Part shown: positions 31,602-41,466 of the stretch, one piece after another
Numbering within the stretch: position 1 is the stretch's first letter
How the letters are laid out: the number at the start of each line of letters is the position of its first letter
DNA from: Chamaesiphon minutus PCC 6605
Lineage (GTDB): Bacteria; Cyanobacteriota; Cyanobacteriia; Cyanobacteriales; Chamaesiphonaceae
Assembly (NCBI RefSeq): GCF_000317145.1
Contig: NC_019697.1
Location: 5,034,886 to 5,098,885, forward strand
DNA: 64,000 nucleotides
Direction of reading: 5' to 3'
The notes under the pieces: model-generated
The model's database searches: none
Told to the model about the DNA's origin: nothing
Seen by the model: the letters and a program-made list of their open reading frames with translations, nothing else
Made by a program: the position numbers and the translations under genes

Positions 31602-32282
31602 TTATACATATTCTTTCAACACATATCCCACACCACGAATCGTATATAGCAGGCGTTTGGGATTATTTACCTCTAATTTGAGCCGTAGGGCACGAATGTA
31701 GACTTCAATAATGTTCGACTCGCCCATAAAATCATATCCCCAAACTTTTTCCAAAATTTGTTCGCGGGTCATTACTTGGCGAGGATGTCGGAGTAAATAT
31801 TCTAATAAATCGAATTCTTTGGCAGTTAATTCGACTATTTTCCCCTGTCGATAAACCTCACGAGTGAGACGATTGAGCGTTAGGTCTTCAAATTCAAATC
31901 GATCGATATCCTCAGACTGCAACCGTCGTAGTCTGGCTTTTACTCTTGCTAATAATTCTTCGATACTGAAGGGTTTAGTGACATAATCATCCGCTCCAGC
32001 ATTTAATCCGGCAACTCGATCGGGAATTTCATCTTTGGCAGTGAGCATAATAATCGGTACCTGAATTCCAGTCGATCGCAAACGCAGACACAGGTCTAGT
32101 CCAGAAATTCCTGGTAACATCCAATCTAAAATCAACAGATCGGGCTGGATATTTCGGGCCATCGTTAATCCGTCTAAGCCATTTTGGGCGACAGTCACCT
32201 GATAGCCTTCTAATGTTAATTCTTCTTCAATTAACCCTGCTAGTTTTGGGTCATCTTCAACTAAAAGAATTCGATCGTTCAT
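31602..32282 (-). CDS. OmpR-family response regulator
   Basis: Length 226 aa from ATG 32282 (MNDRILLVEDD); the frame extends five codons upstream. Receiver domain with acidic pocket VEDD, phosphoacceptor Asp in LLILDWMLPG, Thr in IIMLTAKDE and Lys in YVTKPFS. C-terminal winged helix with RLTREVYRQGKIVELTAKEF and YIRALRLKLEVNNPKRLLYT. Controlled by phosphorylation, most likely by the histidine kinase at 33798-35240. A spondin/RTX gene now sits between the two; a relic of the kinase 3' end lies just upstream of this start. Confidence 0.92.
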   Translation of the reverse strand: MNDRILLVEDDPKLAGLIEEELTLEGYQVTVAQNGLDGLTMARNIQPDLLILDWMLPGISGLDLCLRLRSTGIQVPIIMLTAKDEIPDRVAGLNAGADDYVTKPFSIEELLARVKARLRRLQSEDIDRFEFEDLTLNRLTREVYRQGKIVELTAKEFDLLEYLLRHPRQVMTREQILEKVWGYDFMGESNIIEVYIRALRLKLEVNNPKRLLYTIRGVGYVLKEYV

Positions 32283-32311
32283 ATCGATGATTTCCAAGCT
32301 AGTAATGCAAT
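32263..32311. repeat. Relic of kinase-end/regulator-start junction, copy 1
   Basis: About 40 of 49 bases match 33782-33830. Upstream of the regulator ATG it still encodes IALLAWKSSI followed by TGA, mirroring the kinase C-terminus IALPIWKSSP. Confidence 0.75.
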
Positions 32312-32401: not shown

Positions 32402-33541
32402 TTAGACGAAAGCAGATCCCGTAATGTCAGCAGCACTGACATTTCTCAAAATTGCCAGTTCATCATTACCAAAACTAATCACCGTGTTACGACCAACTCC
32501 AGAGATTGTCAGATCGCCGAAGTTGAGACCATTTGACAACCCGATGCGATCGCCACTGCCAAGATTAAAATCAATAATGGTGTCAAAGCCTTCGCCTTCA
32601 GAGAGGGTGAACACATCGCTGCCAGCACCACCTGTTAACCGATTGAATCCGCTGCCACCAAACAGAGTATCGTTGCCGTTGCCACCAAACAGGGTATCAT
32701 CACCTTCATTGCCATACAAATAATCATTACCATTGCCTCCGTGGAGACGATCGTTCCCAAGTCCGCCGACTAGCTTATCGTTGCCCAGTTCACCGCGTAA
32801 GTTATCGTCCCCAGCACCCCCATTAATCAGATCGTCTTGTTTGGTTCCGGTCAGATTGTCGCTGCCATCGGTACCAGTGATGGTGTTGAAGATGCGGAAC
32901 CGAGCGATTTTGTAGTCAGGTGCAGTAAAATCACCATTGACAAATCGAGGATCGCTCAAAATCGCACCACCTGGAATAAATCCAGTCGCCGCGCGAACCA
33001 CCCCATTTTCGGTAGTACCCGTATTGGGGGCTGACTGTCCAAAGAAGGCAGTATTGGCGGGGATTTCATCATTGACTTCGGTACCAGCATCTAAAACTTG
33101 GCTGCCGAGTACAATGAAATCGGCACCGAGGAAGTTGCCTTTAGCATCAAAGATCTCATGGGCGCGCTCGTTACCATTGGCAATGAAAAAGTCATTGCTG
33201 GGGAGAACCATCGAAGCATAGTTAAAATAGCGGCTGTTGGGATTGCTGGCATCCAAAGTTACCGTAAAAGAGCCTGTTTCACCTGGATCGATCGGACCAG
33301 GCGCGCCTACTAATGGCCCAGTAACCACTCCAGCAACAGTTCCAAATCCTGACTGGAGGAACTCAGCACCAATAACGCTAACGGTACCATCTTCAGAAAT
33401 TCGCTCTACCCCCAGAGAAGCAGGGCGACCGCGATCGTATGTATCGAACATACCATTATGAAATCCAAACCAAACAGGCGTGAGCAAGGTACCTTTAGTC
33501 GGTGCCAGATTTTCGATTTCAATGGTGAGTTGAGTTTGCAT
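32402..33541 (-). CDS. Spondin-domain and RTX calcium-binding repeat protein
   Basis: Length 379 aa. Residues 1-215 match the spondin_N type domain found in bacterial secreted proteins (TPVWFGFHNGMFDTYDRGRP, SVIGAEFLQSGFGTVAG, SRYFNYASMVLPSNDFFIAN). Residues 225-305 are RTX nonapeptides (GGAGDDNLRGELGNDKL, GGNGNDTLFGGSG) that bind calcium in a beta-roll. A C-terminal segment (GSDVFTLSEGEGFDTIIDFN) is typical of serralysin-type ends. No N-terminal signal peptide, consistent with type I secretion. It lies between a kinase and its regulator, framed by a duplicated 49-bp junction, so it appears to have been inserted there. Confidence 0.88.
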   Translation of the reverse strand: MQTQLTIEIENLAPTKGTLLTPVWFGFHNGMFDTYDRGRPASLGVERISEDGTVSVIGAEFLQSGFGTVAGVVTGPLVGAPGPIDPGETGSFTVTLDASNPNSRYFNYASMVLPSNDFFIANGNERAHEIFDAKGNFLGADFIVLGSQVLDAGTEVNDEIPANTAFFGQSAPNTGTTENGVVRAATGFIPGGAILSDPRFVNGDFTAPDYKIARFRIFNTITGTDGSDNLTGTKQDDLINGGAGDDNLRGELGNDKLVGGLGNDRLHGGNGNDYLYGNEGDDTLFGGNGNDTLFGGSGFNRLTGGAGSDVFTLSEGEGFDTIIDFNLGSGDRIGLSNGLNFGDLTISGVGRNTVISFGNDELAILRNVSAADITGSAFV

Positions 33542-33781
33542 GGCGAGCGTATGAGAATAATTTGGTTATGACTGCTAAAAATTAATCTCGATCTCAAGCA
33601 AATTTCATGACGAGTAAAGTATTAGAACAAACGGCTCTAATACTTTACTGGGTCGAAGATTTACCCGCTCCAGAAGAATTTAAGCAACAATCAAATTAAA
33701 TGCTAGAAAAATGAGGATGAGATGAAGATTAGCTGGATACAAGATAAAGCTTTGCGTATAAATACTTACAATCCTGACTCG

Positions 33782-33830
33782 AACAGCATTCGATCGTTCA
33801 TGGTGATGATTTCCAGATTGGTAATGCAAT
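33782..33830. repeat. Relic of kinase-end/regulator-start junction, copy 2
   Basis: Contains the last codons of the kinase, and directly overlapping its stop (ATGA) a short frame MNDRMLFESG that mirrors the regulator start MNDRILLVEDD. Confidence 0.75.
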
Positions 33831-35240
33831 TGTAAAAACACTGCCTTCACCTGGCTTCGAGCGCAGTGTAATTTTGCCATTCATTCCTTCAATTAAACTT
33901 TTGACGATCGCTAAACCCAAACCCGTTCCATCCCTAGAGCGAGTTGATGATTCTTCAGCTCGATAAAAACGCTCGAAAATGCGGTTTTGATGTTCTAGAG
34001 CGATCCCAATTCCTCGATCTCGAATGTGAATAATTGCCAGATCTGCGGTTTGTGCGATCGAGATCGAGATATCACCATTCGAGTACTTAATCGCATTATC
34101 CACGAGATTAATTAAAACTTGCATCAGTCGATCCTGGTCGGCGAGTGCAACAATATCTGCTGTAGTTGCCATCATCTCAATCGGATACTTGCTGACTTTT
34201 TGGCTCATTTCGATGACTTCAGCAACCAATGTATTTAGAACGACTGGGCTATGGCGAAAATGAAGATTGCCGCTATCGGCGCGGGCGAGATCGAGTAAAT
34301 CTTGCAGCATTCGGATCGTCCGATCTGTTTCGGCGATTGCTGTTTCAACAGCATGTTGCTGGTGATTGCTTAAATTGTCACCCCGCCGCAATAAACTTTG
34401 CAGATAGCCTAAAACCACGGTTAGCGGTGTGCGGAGTTCGTGAGAAACATTACCCACAAATTGACGCTGTTGCTCCCATGCCCCTGATAATCTAACTGTC
34501 ATCTCATTAAAAGCGGTTGCCAGTCCCAAAATCTCATCTGGAGCCTGTTGAAGTTCGAGTTTAGCCGCACCCAGATCGTCAGCAGAAACGTTGCTGGCAA
34601 TTTGGCTCATCTGTGCCAAAGGTTGAAGCGTTTTGCGAATTCGCTGGGAGATGGCGATCGTCAGCAGACAAATTGCCAGCAGTCCGATCGCAATTAGGCG
34701 ACTAATTCCAGTAGTTAATTGATGTCGATCGGTCGTGATATCTTGAGAGAGATATACTTTGCCCACCAGCATACCATTGACGGTCAGGGGATTTCCACAC
34801 AACACCAGATAGCGATCGCCATATTGGACAATCGTCGGCTTGACAGGTGCTGATGTTTGACTAATGGTGTTGACAAGATCGATCGATGGCATATTCATCC
34901 CTGAAGATTTGCTCAGAATCTTGCCATTAGGCTCTTTCACCCAGATTGCTACCCCCGATGTCGAAAGTTTATCGATCGTTCGTTTTAAACTAATTTCAAT
35001 AGTTTTCCCTTCACTATACATTTCCACCTGTTCGGGAAAGCGCATTGCCACGTATTCTAGCAGTTGCTTGTGAGAGGTTACTAAATTTTGCTCCATCTGC
35101 CATCCCGCCCAGAAGGCGACAGCACTAACCCCGATGGCCGAGAGAGTCACCAATTCTAGCGTCAACCGAAACTGTAATGAAGTCGGTGAAACTCGCATTC
35201 TGAAAAAGTTACGGATTGATTTTGGGATACGAGAGGGCAT
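33798..35240 (-). CDS. Two-component sensor histidine kinase
   Basis: Length 480 aa. Membrane helices at about 25-48 and 178-200 flank an extracytoplasmic sensor loop, followed by a HAMP linker. The dimerisation/phosphoacceptor box is VGNVSHELRTPLTVVLGY, then N-box NLVDNAIKYSNGD, G1 HIRDRGIGIALEHQ and G2 RSRDGTGLGLAIVKSLI. All ATPase motifs are intact. It should phosphorylate the OmpR-type regulator at 31602-32282. Only the RTX gene separates them; the order kinase then regulator with an ATGA overlap can be reconstructed from sequence relics. Signal unknown. Confidence 0.92.
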   Translation of the reverse strand: MPSRIPKSIRNFFRMRVSPTSLQFRLTLELVTLSAIGVSAVAFWAGWQMEQNLVTSHKQLLEYVAMRFPEQVEMYSEGKTIEISLKRTIDKLSTSGVAIWVKEPNGKILSKSSGMNMPSIDLVNTISQTSAPVKPTIVQYGDRYLVLCGNPLTVNGMLVGKVYLSQDITTDRHQLTTGISRLIAIGLLAICLLTIAISQRIRKTLQPLAQMSQIASNVSADDLGAAKLELQQAPDEILGLATAFNEMTVRLSGAWEQQRQFVGNVSHELRTPLTVVLGYLQSLLRRGDNLSNHQQHAVETAIAETDRTIRMLQDLLDLARADSGNLHFRHSPVVLNTLVAEVIEMSQKVSKYPIEMMATTADIVALADQDRLMQVLINLVDNAIKYSNGDISISIAQTADLAIIHIRDRGIGIALEHQNRIFERFYRAEESSTRSRDGTGLGLAIVKSLIEGMNGKITLRSKPGEGSVFTIALPIWKSSP

Positions 35241-35257: not shown

Positions 35258-35869
35258 TTAAAATATTTGGGCGGTGGAGTGAAGGGGATCGAATTCAAAG
35301 CGACGATCGTAATCGGTCGCACCATAGAGATTGAAGCTAATCGTGGGTTCGTCGCTGATGGCTTCAATCTGGTGAATGGCATCGGGCATCAAACAGAGAA
35401 TGTCACCAGGAACGAGAATTCGATCGCCTGTTGCTTCGATGAGATCGGGAAATTCGGTTGTGGGCGATCGTTGCCAAAAAGTGTTTTTTTCTCGTCCATC
35501 TAACAGTGCCACAATTCCCCAAGCTGCATGATTGTGGACTGGTGAAGCCGTCCCTGGCGACCAAACCACTGTTTGAATCGTTATTAGAAAATCTGGCTCG
35601 TCATAGAGCGTTTGCACCGACCACCCCGTTTCGGGATCTGGTGATAAAAAGTTCAGTTGCAACCACTCACAACTATTTAGCAGCCGTCTGACTAGGGGAC
35701 AGATACGTTGGAGGCGAAGGAGATCGTCACTTTCTCGATCGACAATATCTTCAATATCAGTGAGAAAGCGATAAAGTCGATAAGGTCGATCTCCCCAATT
35801 CTCCCGTGCGTCAGTTTCACAAGGAACGCACAGCCCTGCATCTGTCACCAACCAGTCTCGATCTAACAT
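35258..35869 (-). CDS. Cupin, cysteine-dioxygenase-like
   Basis: Length 203 aa from ATG 35869 (MLDRDWLVTDAG); the frame extends nine codons upstream. The cupin motif SPVHNHAAWGIVALLDGREK supplies two His ligands, and a third His lies in LCLMPDAIHQIEAIS. This matches the cysteine dioxygenase type-I/PCO-like group, which oxidises small thiols with non-haem iron. It neighbours the kinase gene (17 bp downstream) and faces the thiol-redox cluster on the other strand. Exact substrate unknown. Confidence 0.8.
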   Translation of the reverse strand: MLDRDWLVTDAGLCVPCETDARENWGDRPYRLYRFLTDIEDIVDRESDDLLRLQRICPLVRRLLNSCEWLQLNFLSPDPETGWSVQTLYDEPDFLITIQTVVWSPGTASPVHNHAAWGIVALLDGREKNTFWQRSPTTEFPDLIEATGDRILVPGDILCLMPDAIHQIEAISDEPTISFNLYGATDYDRRFEFDPLHSTAQIF

Positions 35870-36355
35870 ACTTGCTTCCCTAGTATCCGATCTCAAGTTT
35901 AAGAGCAGGATTATAGATCTAGGTGATTCTTAGCTAATAACAAGATGAATTTTTGCTGAAGATGACAATTTTTTAATAATTTACTAAGTGAGTAAAAAAT
36001 CCCATCCTTGGAGGAATGCCGCAGGCAGGGTGAGCAGATCTCCACATTAGGTGATTCCCAGAAATAAACATACGCTCGCCGTTGGTTCGATCCTGGTTCC
36101 AGAGGCTTCGCCAATGACTTCGCTCAACCAACTGATGGATCGAGGGTTGAGCGAAGTCGAAACCCGTCAATCGAGGTATATTCTTTGTCGAGAATCACCT
36201 TAACCAGAATCTAAATGGATTCGATCTCCCTTGATTTTATCTAATATCCATGTTTTCTTCATCTGAGACTCATCTTGCTAGATTTTAATTATAGGTAAGC
36301 CCAAAACATTGGGCACACCGAATCGATACCTAAGTATTTTTACACAGAGAATCTA
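35870..36355. other. Intergenic stretch with a degenerate repeat end and a dispersed hairpin
   Basis: No gene seen. Around 35994-36040 the sequence resembles a decayed end of the MITE at 44854 (AAAAATCCCATCCTTGGAGG). A perfect 14-bp hairpin follows at 36117-36159. GAGAATCT immediately precedes the ATG of the next gene. Confidence 0.5.
36117..36159. repeat. GACTTCGCTCAACC hairpin
   Basis: Exact 14-bp complementarity between 36117-36130 and 36146-36159. This word is a common dispersed repeat in cyanobacteria. Confidence 0.7.
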
Positions 36356-36880
36356 ATGAAAGTTCAATTTCTTGCTACATTTGCGGCGATCTCATTACTG
36401 AGCGTTACTGCCGTTGCTCCGACCATCTTCTTTGGTACAAACGCTGCGGTTGCTGGTTGTGCGGGTAAAACAAATCCTTGTGCTGCTAAACCCAATCCAT
36501 GTGCTGGTAAAAAAACTTCTAATTCTGTTGGTGGCCCCTTGGCAAAACAATTACAAGGGAAGCCAGTCGTTGTCGATATCTATGCTAGTTGGTGCCCCGC
36601 TTGCAAAAATATTGCCCCCACTGTTTCCAAAATCAAGCAGCAGTACGGTAACAAAATCACTTTCGTGACATTAGATGTATCTGACAAATCTAGCTCTGCT
36701 AAAGCTGAAGCCACGGCTAAAAAATTGGGTTTGAGTAAGTTTTTTGCAGCTAATAAAACTCAAACTGGTTCGCTGACGATCGTCGATCCAGCCACCGGGA
36801 ATATCTTAGGACAGGAACGTAACAATGCCGAGCTAACTGCTTATTCAACCGTATTAGATTCGGCGATCTCCAAAAAATAG
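36356..36880 (+). CDS. Exported thioredoxin-fold protein, probable lipoprotein
   Basis: Length 174 aa. The N-terminal signal ends in NAAVAGC, a plausible lipobox with Cys34, although a normal signal-peptidase site is possible. A short Cys/Pro/Lys segment with repeated NPCA follows. The thioredoxin domain has the active site YASWCPACKNIAP and a cis-Pro-like turn near SLTIVDPATGN. It resembles TlpA/TxlA-type thiol reductases or oxidants outside the cytoplasmic membrane. First of four co-directional genes with CcdA, thioredoxin reductase and a thioredoxin, which would feed it electrons. Confidence 0.85.
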   Translation: MKVQFLATFAAISLLSVTAVAPTIFFGTNAAVAGCAGKTNPCAAKPNPCAGKKTSNSVGGPLAKQLQGKPVVVDIYASWCPACKNIAPTVSKIKQQYGNKITFVTLDVSDKSSSAKAEATAKKLGLSKFFAANKTQTGSLTIVDPATGNILGQERNNAELTAYSTVLDSAISKK

Positions 36881-37112
36881 ACCTGTTCGTAGAAGTAAGC
36901 GGATACTCTATTCTCTTTCCCTTCACGAAGTCTCTGCCTGCGCAGAAGCTGTTCTATGCAGGCAAAGTCTACGCCAATGATGTTATTCCATTTACTCCTC
37001 CTAATTTTTTTATTGTTTATAAAAAACATTCGTCAAAAATCATGAACGATCTGAGAGTGATTATTTTAATTTAGCATGGCTATCATTCGATCGCAAATAT
37101 CAGGAAAATATT

Positions 37113-37973
37113 ATGAAATTAGAGCAAGAACAAGATCTTGAGTCGCACCCAAATGGGCGCGAAAAAATACATCCAAAGATCGCCAAGAAATGGGTTTTGT
37201 TCGGTGGTTTAGCACTACTGGGCTTGGTATTAGCATTACTGATTACTGGCCCAATTTCTCAAGGAATCGAACACATAATTTCACTTGCAGAAAACCGCTA
37301 TCAGCAATGGTTTTCTAAACAAGATACGGCTAATCCATTAGTATTAGTGCCATTAGCTTTTATCGGCGGCTTAATCGCCAGTGTTTCCCCCTGTATTCTG
37401 GCACTGTTACCACTGAATTTGAGCTATATTGGCACCCGTAATATTACTTCTCGTGGTGATGCTTTTGTTAAAGCTGGATTGTTCGTACTCGGTAATGTCA
37501 TCATTCTCGGTTTGTTTGGGTTAGTATCATCATTTGCTGGCGCAGTAATGGTGGAATATCGCGGTCATATTAATATGGTAGTCGGCGCGATTATACTAAT
37601 TATGGGTTTTGGCCTATTAGGATTGATTAAAATCCCCTTACCCCAAATTAATGTCGATGGCTCAAATTTTGGCCCCTTTGGTGTGGGTTTAACATTTGCT
37701 TTAGTTAGTTCGCCTTGTGCGAGTCCAGTCTTATTTGCCGTTCTCGCTGCCGCAGGTGCTAGCGGTTCCCAATTACTCGCCGTACTGACAATGGCAAGTT
37801 ATGCCTTTGGTTATACGATTATTATCTTTCTAGCTAGTTTGCTAACTGGTTTTGCCAAGCAAGCAAATCTACTATTAAAACATTCACAGAATATTACCAG
37901 ATTTGGTAGTGTATCTCTAATTTTGGCAGGGATTTACTATCTATTTACTGGGGCACAATGGTTTTTCGCTTAG
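37113..37973 (+). CDS. ccdA: CcdA/DsbD-type transmembrane thiol-electron transporter
   Basis: Length 286 aa. A longer-than-usual charged N-terminus and an extra first helix (WVLFGGLALLGLVLALLITG) precede the conserved CcdA core of about six helices. The redox cysteines are in GLIASVSPCILALLPLNLSY and ALVSSPCASPVLFAVLAA. Family knowledge: these two Cys shuttle electrons from cytoplasmic thioredoxin across the membrane for cytochrome c maturation or disulfide reduction. The neighbouring reductase, thioredoxin and exported thioredoxin-like protein supply the donors and acceptor. The extra N-terminal helix is atypical. 232 bp after the lipoprotein gene; TrxB follows in 26-34 bp. Confidence 0.92.
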   Translation: MKLEQEQDLESHPNGREKIHPKIAKKWVLFGGLALLGLVLALLITGPISQGIEHIISLAENRYQQWFSKQDTANPLVLVPLAFIGGLIASVSPCILALLPLNLSYIGTRNITSRGDAFVKAGLFVLGNVIILGLFGLVSSFAGAVMVEYRGHINMVVGAIILIMGFGLLGLIKIPLPQINVDGSNFGPFGVGLTFALVSSPCASPVLFAVLAAAGASGSQLLAVLTMASYAFGYTIIIFLASLLTGFAKQANLLLKHSQNITRFGSVSLILAGIYYLFTGAQWFFA

Positions 37974-38007
37974 TTGTTGCTTTTGGGCTAATTAATGGAT
38001 GAGAACT

Positions 38008-38946
38008 ATGATAGAAAAGCTCGTAATTATTGGTTCGGGTCCAGCAGGTTATACGGCAGCAATCTATGCCGGACGCGCTCAATTGCAACCATTGATGTTT
38101 GAAGGTTTTGTGGTTGGAGGATTGCCAGGTGGTCAATTAATGACTACCACAGAAGTGGAGAATTTCCCTGGCTTTCCAGAGGGAATTCAGGGGCCACATT
38201 TGATGAAAGAAATGCGCCAGCAAGCTGTTCGCTGGGGGGCAAAATTAATTACTGATGATGTAGTTAGAGTCAATTTTAGTTATAGACCATTTACGATCGC
38301 GACTGATGACCTAGAAATAAAAGCTCAAGCGGTAATTATTTGTACTGGTGCAACTGCCAAGCGACTGCATATTGTGGGAGAACAGCAATTTTGGAATAAT
38401 GGGATCTCTGCCTGTGCAATTTGCGATGGTACAAATCCCTTATTTAAAAATGTAGAAATTGCGGTAGTTGGCGGTGGTGATTCGGCAGCGGAAGAGGCCT
38501 TGTATTTAACTAAATATGCCAGCAAAGTACATATGTTAGTCAGAAGCGATCGATTGCGAGCTTCTAAAATTATGCAGGAGCGGGTTTTAAAACATGATAA
38601 AATTCGAGTGCATTGGCAAGCATTACCAATTAGTGCTGATGGCGATGATGTCCTTCGTAACGTGCAGATTCAAGACCAAAAATCTGGCGTAATAACTGAG
38701 TTAAAAGTTGGTGGTTTATTTTACGCGATCGGACATACGCCCAATACCCAACTTTTTCAAGACATATTAGATTTAGACGATAAAGGTTATATCAAAACCA
38801 TTGGTAAATCCACTGCCACCAATATTGCAGGTGTATGGGCTGCTGGTGATGTCCAAGACCACATCTACCGTCAAGCAATTACGGCGGCTGGTACTGGCTG
38901 TATGGCAGCACTAGAAGCCGAACGCTGGTTAGCCGAAATTTATTAA
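38008..38946 (+). CDS. trxB: Thioredoxin reductase
   Basis: Length 312 aa from the ATG at 38008, which has GGA eight bases upstream; an in-frame ATG at 37999 gives 315 aa. FAD motif [19 protein letters not shown], redox-active CAIC in [14 protein letters not shown] motif [15 protein letters not shown] (seen as [14 protein letters not shown]) and the C-terminal FAD motif [20 protein letters not shown]. All elements of low-molecular-weight TrxB are present. CAIC instead of CATC is a minor variant. It would reduce the thioredoxin encoded 30 bp downstream with NADPH. In cyanobacteria many thioredoxins depend on ferredoxin, so a dedicated NADPH branch next to CcdA is notable. Confidence 0.93.
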
Positions 38947-38976
38947 TTCAAAGATAATTTAGAGGTAATATTTAAG

Positions 38977-39306
38977 ATGTCAGCATCAACTTTTCCCCAA
39001 GGTCGTCCAGCTTTTGAACAATTGAAAAGTGACTCTAATAAACTAATTCTAGTCGAAGTGAGCGCGCCGCACTGTAGCTCTTGCGATACGCTCAGACCTA
39101 TTTTGCATCAACTAGCCACCGAACAAAATGGCAACTTCGATCTAGTAGAAATCGATATGACTGAAGAACCAGATCTCGCGATCGATCTCGGCATTCGTAG
39201 CGTTCCAACTGTCGTTTTATTTAAAGATGGTCAATTGCTAGAAAAAATTGTGGGACTAAAGCCTAAAAAGTTATATATAGAAACAATTCAGAAATGGGTT
39301 CGCTAA
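38977..39306 (+). CDS. Thioredoxin with atypical CSSC active site
   Basis: Length 109 aa, single thioredoxin domain without signal peptide. The active site reads APHCSSCDTLRP, so WCGPC is replaced by HCSSC, which should alter redox potential. The cis-Pro is in IRSVPTVVLFKDG. TAGAGGT-type site precedes the ATG (AGAGGTAATATTTAAG). Follows trxB by 30 bp and overlaps the next gene by 13 bp, so it is in one operon. Likely the cytoplasmic carrier from TrxB to CcdA. Confidence 0.9.
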   Translation: MSASTFPQGRPAFEQLKSDSNKLILVEVSAPHCSSCDTLRPILHQLATEQNGNFDLVEIDMTEEPDLAIDLGIRSVPTVVLFKDGQLLEKIVGLKPKKLYIETIQKWVR

Positions 39307-40112
39307 ACTCGATCTTTATTCAGGAGCAAGGTTGTATTTTGAAATTATTATCGGTTCCAAGTCTGACAGGATTGATGGTGGGTTTACTGGTGTCGGCAAG
39401 TTATGTGCCTTCGGCTCAGGCTAGCTATATTTGTGCGAATGGCCCTGGTGCTGACGAAGTACAGGTGGGGTGGACTTATGCTCCCAGCGGCGGTAGTGGT
39501 AGTAATCGTTTCCGGCTATGCGAAAAAAACCGGAATGGCGGAGGTTCTAACTCAGGCTCATCCGCCGAGCCAAGACCCGATCCGTTCAAAGGAAGGCTAG
39601 AGGCGATATCTGCGGTAACGAGTGCCCTGCAAGGCAATTTAGCAGAGCGAGAACGCATTATCAAGAGTCCGAAGTACCAAGCATACATGAATGGCGAATG
39701 GGAATTTTCAGGTAAAAATGGTGGGCCTTGTGCGGCTATTTATTCACGAAAGGGTGAGATTGTTGTGATGTCAGGGCTAGGTGGGAAATCCAAAAACGGC
39801 TCCTTAATCTTCCTTAGCAGCAATATCCCCCGTCCAGCCAGCCCCAAAATCATTAGTGTCACACTGAGCCAAGATAATTATCAGCCGCAAACAGTGAAAG
39901 CCGCCAACCATACATTGACATTGACCAACACATCACTTGGGGCGATTGAGCTAGCCATACCAAACCTGGAAGCTGGCTTAGCGGGGGGGAAAAGCACAAA
40001 CCGTTACAATTTAGCAATGGACGGTAAGTCCATAGTAAATATTGAGTTTCAGGGCGGTTCGGAGGTAATCGACAGACTTCGTAAATGTCTGAGTACCCGC
40101 GCCAATAAGTAG
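39294..40112 (+). CDS. Secreted protein of unknown function
   Basis: Length 272 aa from ATG 39294, overlapping the thioredoxin gene by 13 bp. A TTG at 39339 preceded by AAGG is a possible alternative start and would put the signal peptide at the N-terminus (LLSVPSLTGLMVGLLVSASY, cleavage near AQA). The mature part has a Gly/Ser/Asn-rich linker (about 75-95), a pair-rich middle region with one Cys in GGPCAAIYSRKG, and a beta-rich C-terminal half. Four cysteines in total in the mature part (YICANG, RLCEK, GPCAA, RKCLS) are possible targets of the upstream redox genes. No family recognised. Confidence 0.7.
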   Translation: MGSLNSIFIQEQGCILKLLSVPSLTGLMVGLLVSASYVPSAQASYICANGPGADEVQVGWTYAPSGGSGSNRFRLCEKNRNGGGSNSGSSAEPRPDPFKGRLEAISAVTSALQGNLAERERIIKSPKYQAYMNGEWEFSGKNGGPCAAIYSRKGEIVVMSGLGGKSKNGSLIFLSSNIPRPASPKIISVTLSQDNYQPQTVKAANHTLTLTNTSLGAIELAIPNLEAGLAGGKSTNRYNLAMDGKSIVNIEFQGGSEVIDRLRKCLSTRANK

Positions 40113-40538: not shown

Positions 40539-41131
40539 GGAAAGTGAATCCATCGATCTGTAGATATTGGTACGAACACAAAAGACACAACTCAAACCCA
40601 CAGTTAACCACTCGAAAACACAGATTAAAGTCTAAATTAAATCTCCAAGTTTTCCGAAATTAACTCAATAACATTTGTTGTCTTGAGTGTAAGTAACCAC
40701 TAAAAAACCATCTCTACTTAAATAGGAATACTCAGCTCATGAACTTCAAATCTATCCTCGTTCTCGGTCTCGGCGTCGCTACATTGGGTCTGACTCTTCC
40801 CGCTCATGCTGATACAGCTAATGTTAATACCAGCAGCCAAACTACCGTGATTACTGGCAACAAAAACAAGATCGACCAACGGAACACTTCCACCATTCGC
40901 AACACGGGCATCGGTCGTCCGACTTTTGAAAGCACTGGTAGCAGCAATGATAACGCTCAAGCTGTAGATGTTTTCGGCAATCGCAACCGTGTCGAGCAAA
41001 AAAATACTAGCGACATCAAAAACGTTCGTGTCAACCCCCGCCGCTACTAAGGTGTGACTGAGGTTGTCAGTTCACTTCACTGACAACCGCCGCTATTTAA
41101 ACTCTTTGATTCGATTTTAATTAATTAATTC
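40539..41131. repeat. 593-bp identical block, copy 2
   Basis: Direct repeat of 30362-30954. The match ends at TTAATTAATTC, after which the two loci differ. Confidence 0.85.
40739..41050 (+). CDS. Small secreted curlin-like repeat protein, copy C
   Basis: Length 103 aa, identical to copy A at base level because it lies in the 593-bp repeated block. Signal peptide to AHA, then two Q-x5-GNxN-x3-Q units. First of a pair with copy D. Confidence 0.75.
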   Translation: MNFKSILVLGLGVATLGLTLPAHADTANVNTSSQTTVITGNKNKIDQRNTSTIRNTGIGRPTFESTGSSNDNAQAVDVFGNRNRVEQKNTSDIKNVRVNPRRY

Positions 41132-41157: not shown

Positions 41158-41466
41158 ATGAACTTCAAATCTATCCTCGTTCTCGGTCTCGGCGTCGCTA
41201 CATTAGGTCTGACTCTTCCCGCTCATGCTGATACGGCTAGTGTCAATAGCAACAACCAAAGCACCGTCATTACTGGTAATAACAACGTCGTCAATCAAAG
41301 AAATACTTCTAGGATTCGCAATACTCAAACTGGTGGTCGCACTTTTGAGAATACTGGTAGTGTCAATGATAGCAATCAAGTTGTCGATATCTTCGGTGAT
41401 GGCAACCGTGTCGATCAAACAAATCGCAGCGACATCAACAATGTTCGTCATAACCGCCGCAGATAA
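41158..41466 (+). CDS. Small secreted curlin-like repeat protein, copy D (diverged)
   Basis: Length 102 aa. The first 25 codons (signal peptide) are almost identical in DNA to copies A-C, but the mature part differs: ASVNSNNQSTVITGNNNVVN and VDIFGDGNRVDQTNRSDINN. The glutamine/asparagine spacing of the repeat is kept while other residues vary, which is what selection for an amyloid-like fold would leave. Ends in basic NRRR. 108 bp after copy C; terminator at 41517. Confidence 0.75.
   Translation: MNFKSILVLGLGVATLGLTLPAHADTASVNSNNQSTVITGNNNVVNQRNTSRIRNTQTGGRTFENTGSVNDSNQVVDIFGDGNRVDQTNRSDINNVRHNRRR

Follow-up and report, generated by a model that had tools for sequence, protein, structure and literature searches.

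A thioredoxin-CcdA gene cluster of Chamaesiphon minutus PCC 6605 as a possible inducible relay of reducing power to the cell envelope

In Chamaesiphon minutus PCC 6605, genes for an exported thioredoxin-fold protein, a CcdA-type membrane carrier, an NADPH-thioredoxin reductase and an atypical thioredoxin follow one another, facing genes for a cupin, a sensor kinase and a response regulator across a divergent gap. This arrangement raises the question of whether the genes belong together, where their electrons would come from and which thiols they would serve. Our preferred answer, to which we assign a probability of about 0.6, is that the cluster encodes a relay that supplies the cell envelope with reducing power and is induced under soft-metal or thiol stress.

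Genes of the cluster and their order across genomes

The window, i.e., the whole stretch analyzed, comprises 64,000 nucleotides (assembly GCF_000317145.1, NC_019697.1, 5,034,886-5,098,885), and all coordinates are window positions (Table 1). The genes claimed in the original prediction (exported thioredoxin fold, CcdA, TrxB and CSSC thioredoxin) are present where it had placed them, as judged by Pfam and TIGRFAM scores. The intergenic gaps after CcdA, preceding TrxB and TrxE, measure 25 and 30 bp. Promoter-like sites (5, versus 9.4 in shuffled sequences) and terminator-like sites (2 versus 4.2) were fewer than in the shuffles.

Table 1. Features of the cluster and its neighbors, in window positions.
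Feature	Position	Strand	Evidence or remark
OmpR-type response regulator	31602..32297	-	PF00072 and PF00486; 41% identity to pSYSX CopR/RppA
RTX-repeat protein, between kinase and regulator genes	32402..33541	-	PF00353, 106 bits
Direct-repeat box preceding RTX gene	33709..33726	-	Exact match to YTCATCTNNNNYTCATYT; ~167 bp from RTX start
Sensor histidine kinase	33798..35240	-	HisKA, HAMP, HATPase_c; AlphaFold2 pLDDT 78.5
Thiol-dioxygenase-like cupin	35258..35896	-	phmmer versus 3uss, E 4.2e-16
Weaker box near cupin start	35943..35959	-	10/12 positions
Direct-repeat box TTCATCTGAGACTCATCT preceding exported thioredoxin	36258..36275	+	12/12 positions
Exported thioredoxin-fold protein, WCPAC (Cys 80, 83)	36356..36880	+	PF00085, 50.5 bits
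CcdA-type membrane electron carrier	37113..37973	+	PF02683, 38.4 bits (cut-off 27.1)
NTR1-type NADPH-thioredoxin reductase TrxB (CAIC)	37999..38946	+	TIGR01292, 386.9 bits (cut-off 343.45); tree
TrxE-type thioredoxin, site APHCSSC	38977..39306	+	PF00085, 72.5 bits; tree with NTRC thioredoxin domains
Secreted-looking protein, four Cys, without Pfam family	39339..40112	+	Neighbor, judged outside the system

The extra N-terminal helix ascribed to CcdA was seen both by hydropathy (segment 23-53) and in the AlphaFold2 model (helix 25-69, mean pLDDT 73.9). The first transmembrane cysteine is residue 94, versus 48 and 38 (by eye) in this genome's two further CcdA-like proteins, and Cys94 and Cys202 are invariant in 26 aligned sequences. 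PF02683 was the sole domain in a Pfam scan at E 0.1, which detected no periplasmic domain ahead of the membrane domain. ScsB has a periplasmic domain in front of its membrane domain. The DsbD and ScsABCD systems represent the same type of route, in which cytosolic thioredoxin feeds a membrane domain of the CcdA/DsbD type and this domain in turn feeds an exported thioredoxin-fold protein; here, however, the membrane domain stands alone, an NADPH reductase and a thioredoxin are encoded alongside, and the exported thioredoxin bears a Cys-repeat stretch. The Scs (suppressor of copper sensitivity) relay is linked to copper in the portions of the literature available to us.

The Cys-repeat stretch comprises three cysteines in NPCAxK-type repeats (residues 35, 42 and 49), and separate exported proteins with such repeats occur in 12 of 44 cupin-centred loci. 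A literature search by motif strings of this type found nothing related. The designation of the exported thioredoxin as a lipoprotein is doubtful: VAGC is a possible lipobox, but the nearest relative has AVANPC at that place.

In a survey sample of 388 genomes, a CcdA ortholog was detected in 69 (E 1e-40), and gene order was counted over 69 fetched loci having a CcdA-labelled gene. The exported thioredoxin lies immediately upstream of CcdA in 48 of them, TrxE occurs at 18 and TrxB at 12, while the cupin and the kinase are each found at 25. A sigma/anti-sigma pair replaces or accompanies the cupin or kinase at seven loci. The conserved core is the exported thioredoxin with CcdA, often beside a thiol-dioxygenase-like cupin, a histidine kinase and a response regulator. 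TrxB adjoins CcdA in all 12 loci that carry it (with a different order in locus L156 and an intervening gene in L151). The order pointed out in the original prediction (exported thioredoxin, CcdA, TrxB, thioredoxin) recurs in other genomes, beyond chance; on the other hand, it occurs unevenly within the family to which the window belongs, a close thioredoxin being found in 3 of 11 genomes, and TrxB is missing from 6 of the 18 loci with TrxE. Since TrxB is absent from 57 of the 69 loci and TrxE from 51, CcdA in most loci would have to be fed by another donor. Genes related to metals or thiols lie near some loci, including those for CopZ-type, AhpC/TSA, DUF3179, MerA-like and VTT proteins, arsM and egtB/egtD. 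A literature search, covering mostly titles and the beginnings of abstracts, found no description of the core together with cupin, kinase and regulator.

The reductase and its thioredoxin

By sequence kinship, TrxB and the CSSC thioredoxin are the pair already named NTR1/TrxE, whose members are unfused sister proteins of the NTRC halves. The cassette TrxB proteins form one clade (100/99) beside NTRC and free Pseudanabaena NTRs in a tree drawn with a midpoint root. The cassette thioredoxins group with the NTRC thioredoxin domains (100/99) and are not one clade, in a single-thioredoxin tree that has long branches and was built on a short alignment of few columns. The best 80 matches listed for TrxB hinted at a recent transfer from Chlamydiae or Verrucomicrobia, an origin that was rejected because the cassette TrxB falls with cyanobacterial NTR and NTRC (100/99).

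The original prediction had read matching variants in reductase, thioredoxin and CcdA as signs of a dedicated, insulated pathway. Among 12 cassette reductases, ten have CAIC and two have CAVC, and CAIC is present in all 24 NTRC frames read; it therefore marks a lineage, and was rejected as a mark of specificity or insulation. Similarly, CSSC was found in 4 of 20 cassette-type thioredoxins, among which WCGPC was absent (0/20) and P[HY]CxxC was nearly general (19/20). In the window TrxB, WNNG precedes the CxxC and CDGTNPLF follows it, and the GR/KG and FF motifs are absent from the places where we presume them to lie from the E. coli TrxB. Loss of these thioredoxin-binding motifs is described as a mark of NTR1 in the part of a review consulted (PMC9025218), and any insulation would more plausibly be due to this loss than to CAIC.

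Insulation from thioredoxins fed by FTR fared better, with experimental backing from the Anabaena sp. PCC 7120 orthologs Alr2204/Alr2205, which are likewise an adjacent NTR and atypical thioredoxin with kinship to the NTRC halves. According to the sections available of the study concerned, the Anabaena NTR reduces only its neighbor Alr2205, FTR cannot reduce Alr2205, two WCxxC thioredoxin-like genes lie upstream of the NTR, and the NTR/Trx genes may, in its authors' view, be pseudogenes (PMC7242069). The active site is YCPSC in Anabaena versus HCSSC here. CcdA is without mention in the main texts of PMC7242069 and PMC9025218, and in the portions covered a regulator, box or Cys repeats are not among the features described for NTR1/TrxE.

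Exclusive service to the cassette is a different matter. No NTR-type match besides TrxB was found in the window genome, and in 7 of the 12 genomes with a cassette TrxB a search at E 1e-20 matched nothing else, so that a TrxB serving the cassette alone lacks support. Conversely, five of the six loci with TrxE and without TrxB lie in genomes with an NTRC-length match (the sixth, G001, has neither), and TrxE therefore need not depend on NTR1.

Cupin, kinase, regulator and box

The cupin across the divergent gap, mentioned in the original prediction, recurs at related loci and is part of the system, together with the kinase and regulator that the prediction had left out. It is predicted to be thiol-dioxygenase-like, as kin of the cysteine and 3-mercaptopropionate dioxygenases (CDO/MDO) with three metal-binding histidines: its match is to the 3-mercaptopropionate dioxygenase 3uss, and an HxH (HNH) and a later His (IH) are kept in all 12 cupins printed (by eye). 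Unlike those enzymes, it lies beside a kinase and a regulator, and its score against PF05995 (CDO_I) is 19 bits, short of the cut-off (23). With occurrences in 182 of 388 genomes, far more than have the cassette, the cupin is not dedicated to it.

A direct repeat, TCATCT-N5-TCATCT, precedes the exported thioredoxin in 27 of the 30 loci that have a cupin or kinase gene, versus 3 of the 19 that have neither. At a match of at least 11 of 12 positions, the box lies upstream of 30 of 48 exported-thioredoxin genes, compared with 4 of 682 unlabelled leading genes. The box TTCATCTGAGACTCATCT resembles the CopR-type repeat, given as TTCATN4-5TTCAT in the section consulted of PMC4182526, but has CTCAT after six bases. 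The CopMRS system of Synechocystis PCC 6803, as far as its published accounts were available (PMC4182526, PMC4335983), shares the divergent OmpR-type two-component regulation, and its direct-repeat box may be related. The two regulators are 41% identical, whereas the sensor part of the kinase did not align to CopS, and DUF305 (CopM), present at the CopMRS locus, was found in none of the cluster proteins scanned. Elsewhere in the window genome, CopM-like (DUF305) loci come with regulators of their own and with CopR-type boxes, and copper may therefore not be the signal here.

His57 and Cys148 of the kinase are kept in all 40 aligned orthologs. A fold search with the kinase model was uninformative, the judgeable listed matches fitting the kinase core. 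Relatives of the RTX-repeat protein lie directly upstream of the exported thioredoxin in loci L198 and L203, and this protein is a possible member of the regulon.

A candidate route and its alternatives

In the proposed relay, electrons would pass from NADPH to NTR1 (TrxB) and its own TrxE; the membrane protein CcdA would accept them from TrxE and hand them to the exported thioredoxin on the far side. The exported thioredoxin may act on envelope thiols, whether its own repeats, stand-alone Cys-repeat proteins elsewhere, or oxidized or metal-loaded proteins. The cupin, kinase and regulator genes would detect a signal that reacts with thiols on the outer side of the membrane, probably a soft metal (such as copper or mercury) or thiol oxidation, perhaps through His57 and Cys148, and the regulator would switch on the relay by binding the direct-repeat box. 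The route in the original prediction is thus plausible as far as the exported thioredoxin, with its genes all present, and loses the four-Cys secreted protein as its end.

That the relay exists to reduce this last protein is highly improbable. Its gene begins 32 bp after TrxE, and one congener (L148) has a 77% relative in the corresponding place behind TrxE. Matches at E 1e-4, however, were confined to 15 of 388 genomes; apart from the copy in the window itself, identities were 27-39%, and the 17 other listed places all lay outside the fetched cassette stretches. This distribution disfavored it as an end point. Its reported overlap with the thioredoxin gene was a matter of start-codon choice, since the L148 relative begins at the residue matching TTG at 39339, past the thioredoxin stop.

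It is rather unlikely that two independent modules happen to share a neighborhood, NTR1/TrxE serving cytosolic targets and CcdA with the exported thioredoxin being fed by FTR-reduced thioredoxins. FTR is present in the genome, most loci with CcdA and exported thioredoxin lack TrxB/TrxE, and TrxB is the sole NTR-type reductase of this genome; against this stand the short gaps after CcdA and the constant place of TrxB beside it. A second system for cytochrome c maturation or lumen reduction, in which CcdA and the exported thioredoxin keep haem-site or lumenal cysteines reduced, accords with the CcdA family, whose Pfam name is cytochrome c biogenesis. It seems quite unlikely, given that the genome already has two further CcdA-like proteins, one directly followed by a long ORF resembling a cytochrome c biogenesis gene by eye (L307), and that most cyanobacteria lack the cassette.

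Within the envelope relay, a more specific role for the repeats is possible and is put forward tentatively. The NPCAxK repeats might act, much like a metallothionein, as an exported thiol buffer against soft metals; this buffer could stay reduced in an oxidizing compartment because a dedicated line from NADPH through NTR1, TrxE and CcdA to the exported thioredoxin supplies it. The kinase would then read the metal or thiol state via its invariant His and Cys, and the thiol dioxygenase would tune or report the level of small thiols.

NTR1/TrxE has been studied biochemically, and the link to CcdA, a Cys-repeat thioredoxin and a regulator with its box gives the pair, so far without an assigned function, a candidate role. 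If the proposed relay is correct, some cyanobacteria would have a supply of NADPH electrons for envelope thiols that does not depend on the light-driven FTR, under a regulon found in several lineages.

Genes of the locus and conservation of the core unit

The window occupies C1:5034886-5098885 of a 6.76-Mb genome in three contigs (G000). Its closest sequence relatives mark it as cyanobacterial, probably from a Chamaesiphon. The five genes on the forward strand and the cupin divergent from them all lie at the positions originally predicted. In Pfam and NCBIfam profile searches, the exported and cytosolic thioredoxins matched PF00085, the CcdA protein PF02683 and the reductase TIGR01292; the last ORF of the forward set matched no family in either collection. 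The original prediction was mistaken in placing this cysteine-bearing ORF at the end of the electron route, and its gene set, sound for the forward genes and the cupin, left out the regulator: beyond the cupin, the minus strand encodes a histidine kinase, an RTX-repeat protein and an OmpR-type response regulator, in that order. The tandem small ORFs share their first ~27 residues and appear to be a pair of secreted paralogs.

Features of the window
Feature	Positions	Strand
Response regulator, OmpR type	31602-32297	-
RTX-repeat gene	32402-33541	-
Histidine kinase	33798-35240	-
Cupin	35258-35896	-
Exported thioredoxin (WCPAC)	36356-36880	+
CcdA	37113-37973	+
TrxB (NTR1 type, CAIC)	37999-38946	+
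TrxE (APHCSSC)	38977-39306	+
Last ORF	39339-40112	+
Tandem small ORFs	40739-41050; 41158-41466	

CcdA matches at E 1e-40 occurred in 69 of the 388 genomes sampled from the class. Stretches were fetched around these and the best thioredoxin matches, and genes were called by script (77 stretches, including the window); the 69 stretches with a CcdA-labelled gene, by its own cut-off, form the denominator for neighbors, whose absences are overcounted because some contigs stop within the cluster. The exported thioredoxin lies immediately 5' of CcdA in 48 loci, and at least two copies of it occur in 23. The cupin, kinase and regulator appear in 25, 25 and 20 loci (at least one of the three in 31), TrxB in 12 and TrxE in 18. 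The core unit is therefore the exported thioredoxin with CcdA, NTR1/TrxE being an addition. The cassette has a patchy distribution in the family to which the window belongs: 3 of 11 genomes have a close TrxE (84-100% identity), and in one of the three (G001, locus L149) TrxB is missing between CcdA and TrxE.

On plasmid pPg_02 of Pseudanabaena galeata CCNP1313 (L171, 18673-23255) the cassette is plasmid-borne, and an annotated IS630 transposase separates a shortened TrxB from the TrxE gene. Another locus (L153, 5001-6684) carries a second, incomplete set of short exported-thioredoxin and TrxE frames, adjoining CopZ-type and AhpC/TSA genes. A complete sigma/anti-sigma pair was present in 7 of the 69 loci, the sigma factor being named by eye and one anti-sigma relative confirmed as RskA_C. 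At L193, L198, L200, L201 and L203 the sigma-factor-like gene lies directly 3' of CcdA; four of these loci also have an anti-sigma-type gene, and the arrangement is apparently another control of the exported thioredoxin-CcdA unit.

The NTR1/TrxE pair and the exported cysteine repeats

The cassette reductases formed a single clade (12 rows, support 100/99). Together with 16 NTRC and six free Pseudanabaena NTR rows they constituted a single cyanobacterial branch (100/99) that excluded the 23 rows of other phyla. Ordinary thioredoxins lay apart from the cassette thioredoxins, which clustered with the thioredoxin domains of NTRC (100/99) but, in this short alignment, were not upheld as one clade. 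Judged by sequence, the cytoplasmic half of the cassette appears to be the pair that a review names NTR1/TrxE, in which NTR1 lacks thioredoxin-binding motifs and for which, as for NTRC, duplication is the stated origin; the Pseudanabaena NTRs are also classed there as NTR1, but inside the NTRC branch (PMC9025218). The significance originally attached to the CAIC motif of the reductase was misjudged.

In Anabaena, Mihara et al. reported that Alr2205 (YCPSC) is reduced by both the NTR (Alr2204) and NTRC, was the only tested thioredoxin so reduced, and is not reduced by FTR; two WCxxC thioredoxin-like genes lie upstream within a conserved series (PMC7242069). The main text of neither paper mentions CcdA. 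The window genome encodes the FTR catalytic subunit, and its sole NTR-type match is the cassette TrxB. Among 55 genomes examined, this TrxB was present in 12 and was the only match at E 1e-20 in seven of them (two being 74% and 82% complete), and an NTRC-length match occurred in five of the six genomes having TrxE without TrxB. Insulation is therefore likely for the protein pair, though the cassette may not be its sole user; the original prediction was right that reductase and thioredoxin are dedicated partners.

Both cysteines of CcdA, which has an extra N-terminal helix, were kept in 26 of 26 aligned sequences. In the exported thioredoxin, CAGKTNPCAAKPNPCAGKK precedes the WCPAC domain; by eye, its relatives range from no repeat to ~10 NPCA[AGS]K or DPCA[AGS]K units, and at several loci with doubled genes the first copy lacks repeats and the second carries them behind a lipobox-like site. 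The same repeats form 13 stand-alone, exported-looking proteins in 12 of 44 cupin-centered loci. Five of these proteins have a C-terminal part that is YHS-like by eye (one was tested and reached 20.6 bits against a cut-off of 30.3), and five genes of this kind are divergent partners of the cupin. These stand-alone genes are the strongest hint that the repeats form a functional thiol module under common control.

A direct-repeat box and a relative of CopRS

The word pair TGAG-N6-ATGA (with its complement) occurred in 23 of 34 divergent gaps adjoining cupin genes, versus 8 for the most frequent pair in shuffled gaps, and led to a direct repeat of 11-bp period, TCATCT-N5-TCATCT. Counted at 11 or more of 12 matching positions within 300 bp upstream, and scored on the loci of its discovery, this box preceded 30 of 48 exported-thioredoxin, 21 of 55 cupin, 5 of 16 kinase and 4 of 10 cysteine-repeat genes, 0 of 15 CcdA genes and 4 of 682 unlabelled leading genes; the cupin and thioredoxin counts are not independent, since divergent pairs share a single gap. 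The shuffled control gave 2 of 682 and none in the labelled groups. Of the 30 loci that have cupin or kinase, 27 had the box ahead of the first exported thioredoxin, against 3 of the 19 that have neither (Fisher p 2e-7, too small because the loci are related). In the window it begins 98 bp upstream of the exported thioredoxin. The RTX-repeat gene between kinase and regulator has its own box, and RTX relatives sit immediately 5' of the exported thioredoxin in L198 and L203.

Across the whole window genome, the box with up to one mismatch was not enriched over its reversed control (40 versus 35 sites). Eighteen sites are exact, two of them in the window; the other 16 have the form TTCATCTNNNTTTCATCT, 15 being TTCATCTNNATTTCATCT, and several adjoin DUF305 genes and regulators. 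Along C3 and C1 (L276-L293), several DUF305 (CopM-like) genes lie beside TTCATCTNNATTTCATCT-form sites, some with their own regulators, and the genome apparently carries multiple CopMRS-like loci. The box resembles the CopR site TTCATN4-5TTCAT (PMC4182526), and the layout of the DUF305 sites is similar to that on pSYSX of Synechocystis, whose RppA/RppB genes were taken, by position, as CopRS. The pSYSX regulator (RppA, taken as CopR) shares 41% identity with the window regulator and 55-56% with two regulators at the other exact sites; the window system is accordingly a cousin of CopRS, distinct from CopRS itself. His57 and Cys148 of the kinase, between two predicted membrane helices, were kept in 40 of 40 orthologs.

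The cupin, its neighbors and the overall reading

The cupin is closest to 3-mercaptopropionate dioxygenases and, with matches at E 1e-40 in 182 of the 388 genomes, also works beyond the cassette; among the 44 cupin-centered loci, 15 had a gene labelled as a kinase ortholog. At six loci lacking the kinase (L254-L258 and L270), the cupin is near three cytochrome oxidase subunit-like genes (by eye; clusters m11-m13) and an ArsC-like gene (m6).

The NTR1/TrxE pair itself is already known. In the literature searched, with most subscription journals outside its coverage, we found no description of its coupling to CcdA and a cysteine-repeat exported thioredoxin, or of the cupin-kinase-regulator set with its box.

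CopZ-type, AhpC/TSA and DUF3179 proteins occurred in four, five and three of the 77 stretches. In other records the regulator adjoins VTT-domain proteins together with a MerA-like oxidoreductase, arsM/arsS, or egtB/egtD of ergothioneine synthesis. These neighbors suggest a link with soft metals or with thiol stress, no single agent being favored. The predicted chain from NADPH through TrxB, thioredoxin and CcdA to the exported thioredoxin is right as a reading, and the locus is most economically interpreted as an inducible thiol relay that carries electrons from NADPH to the envelope.
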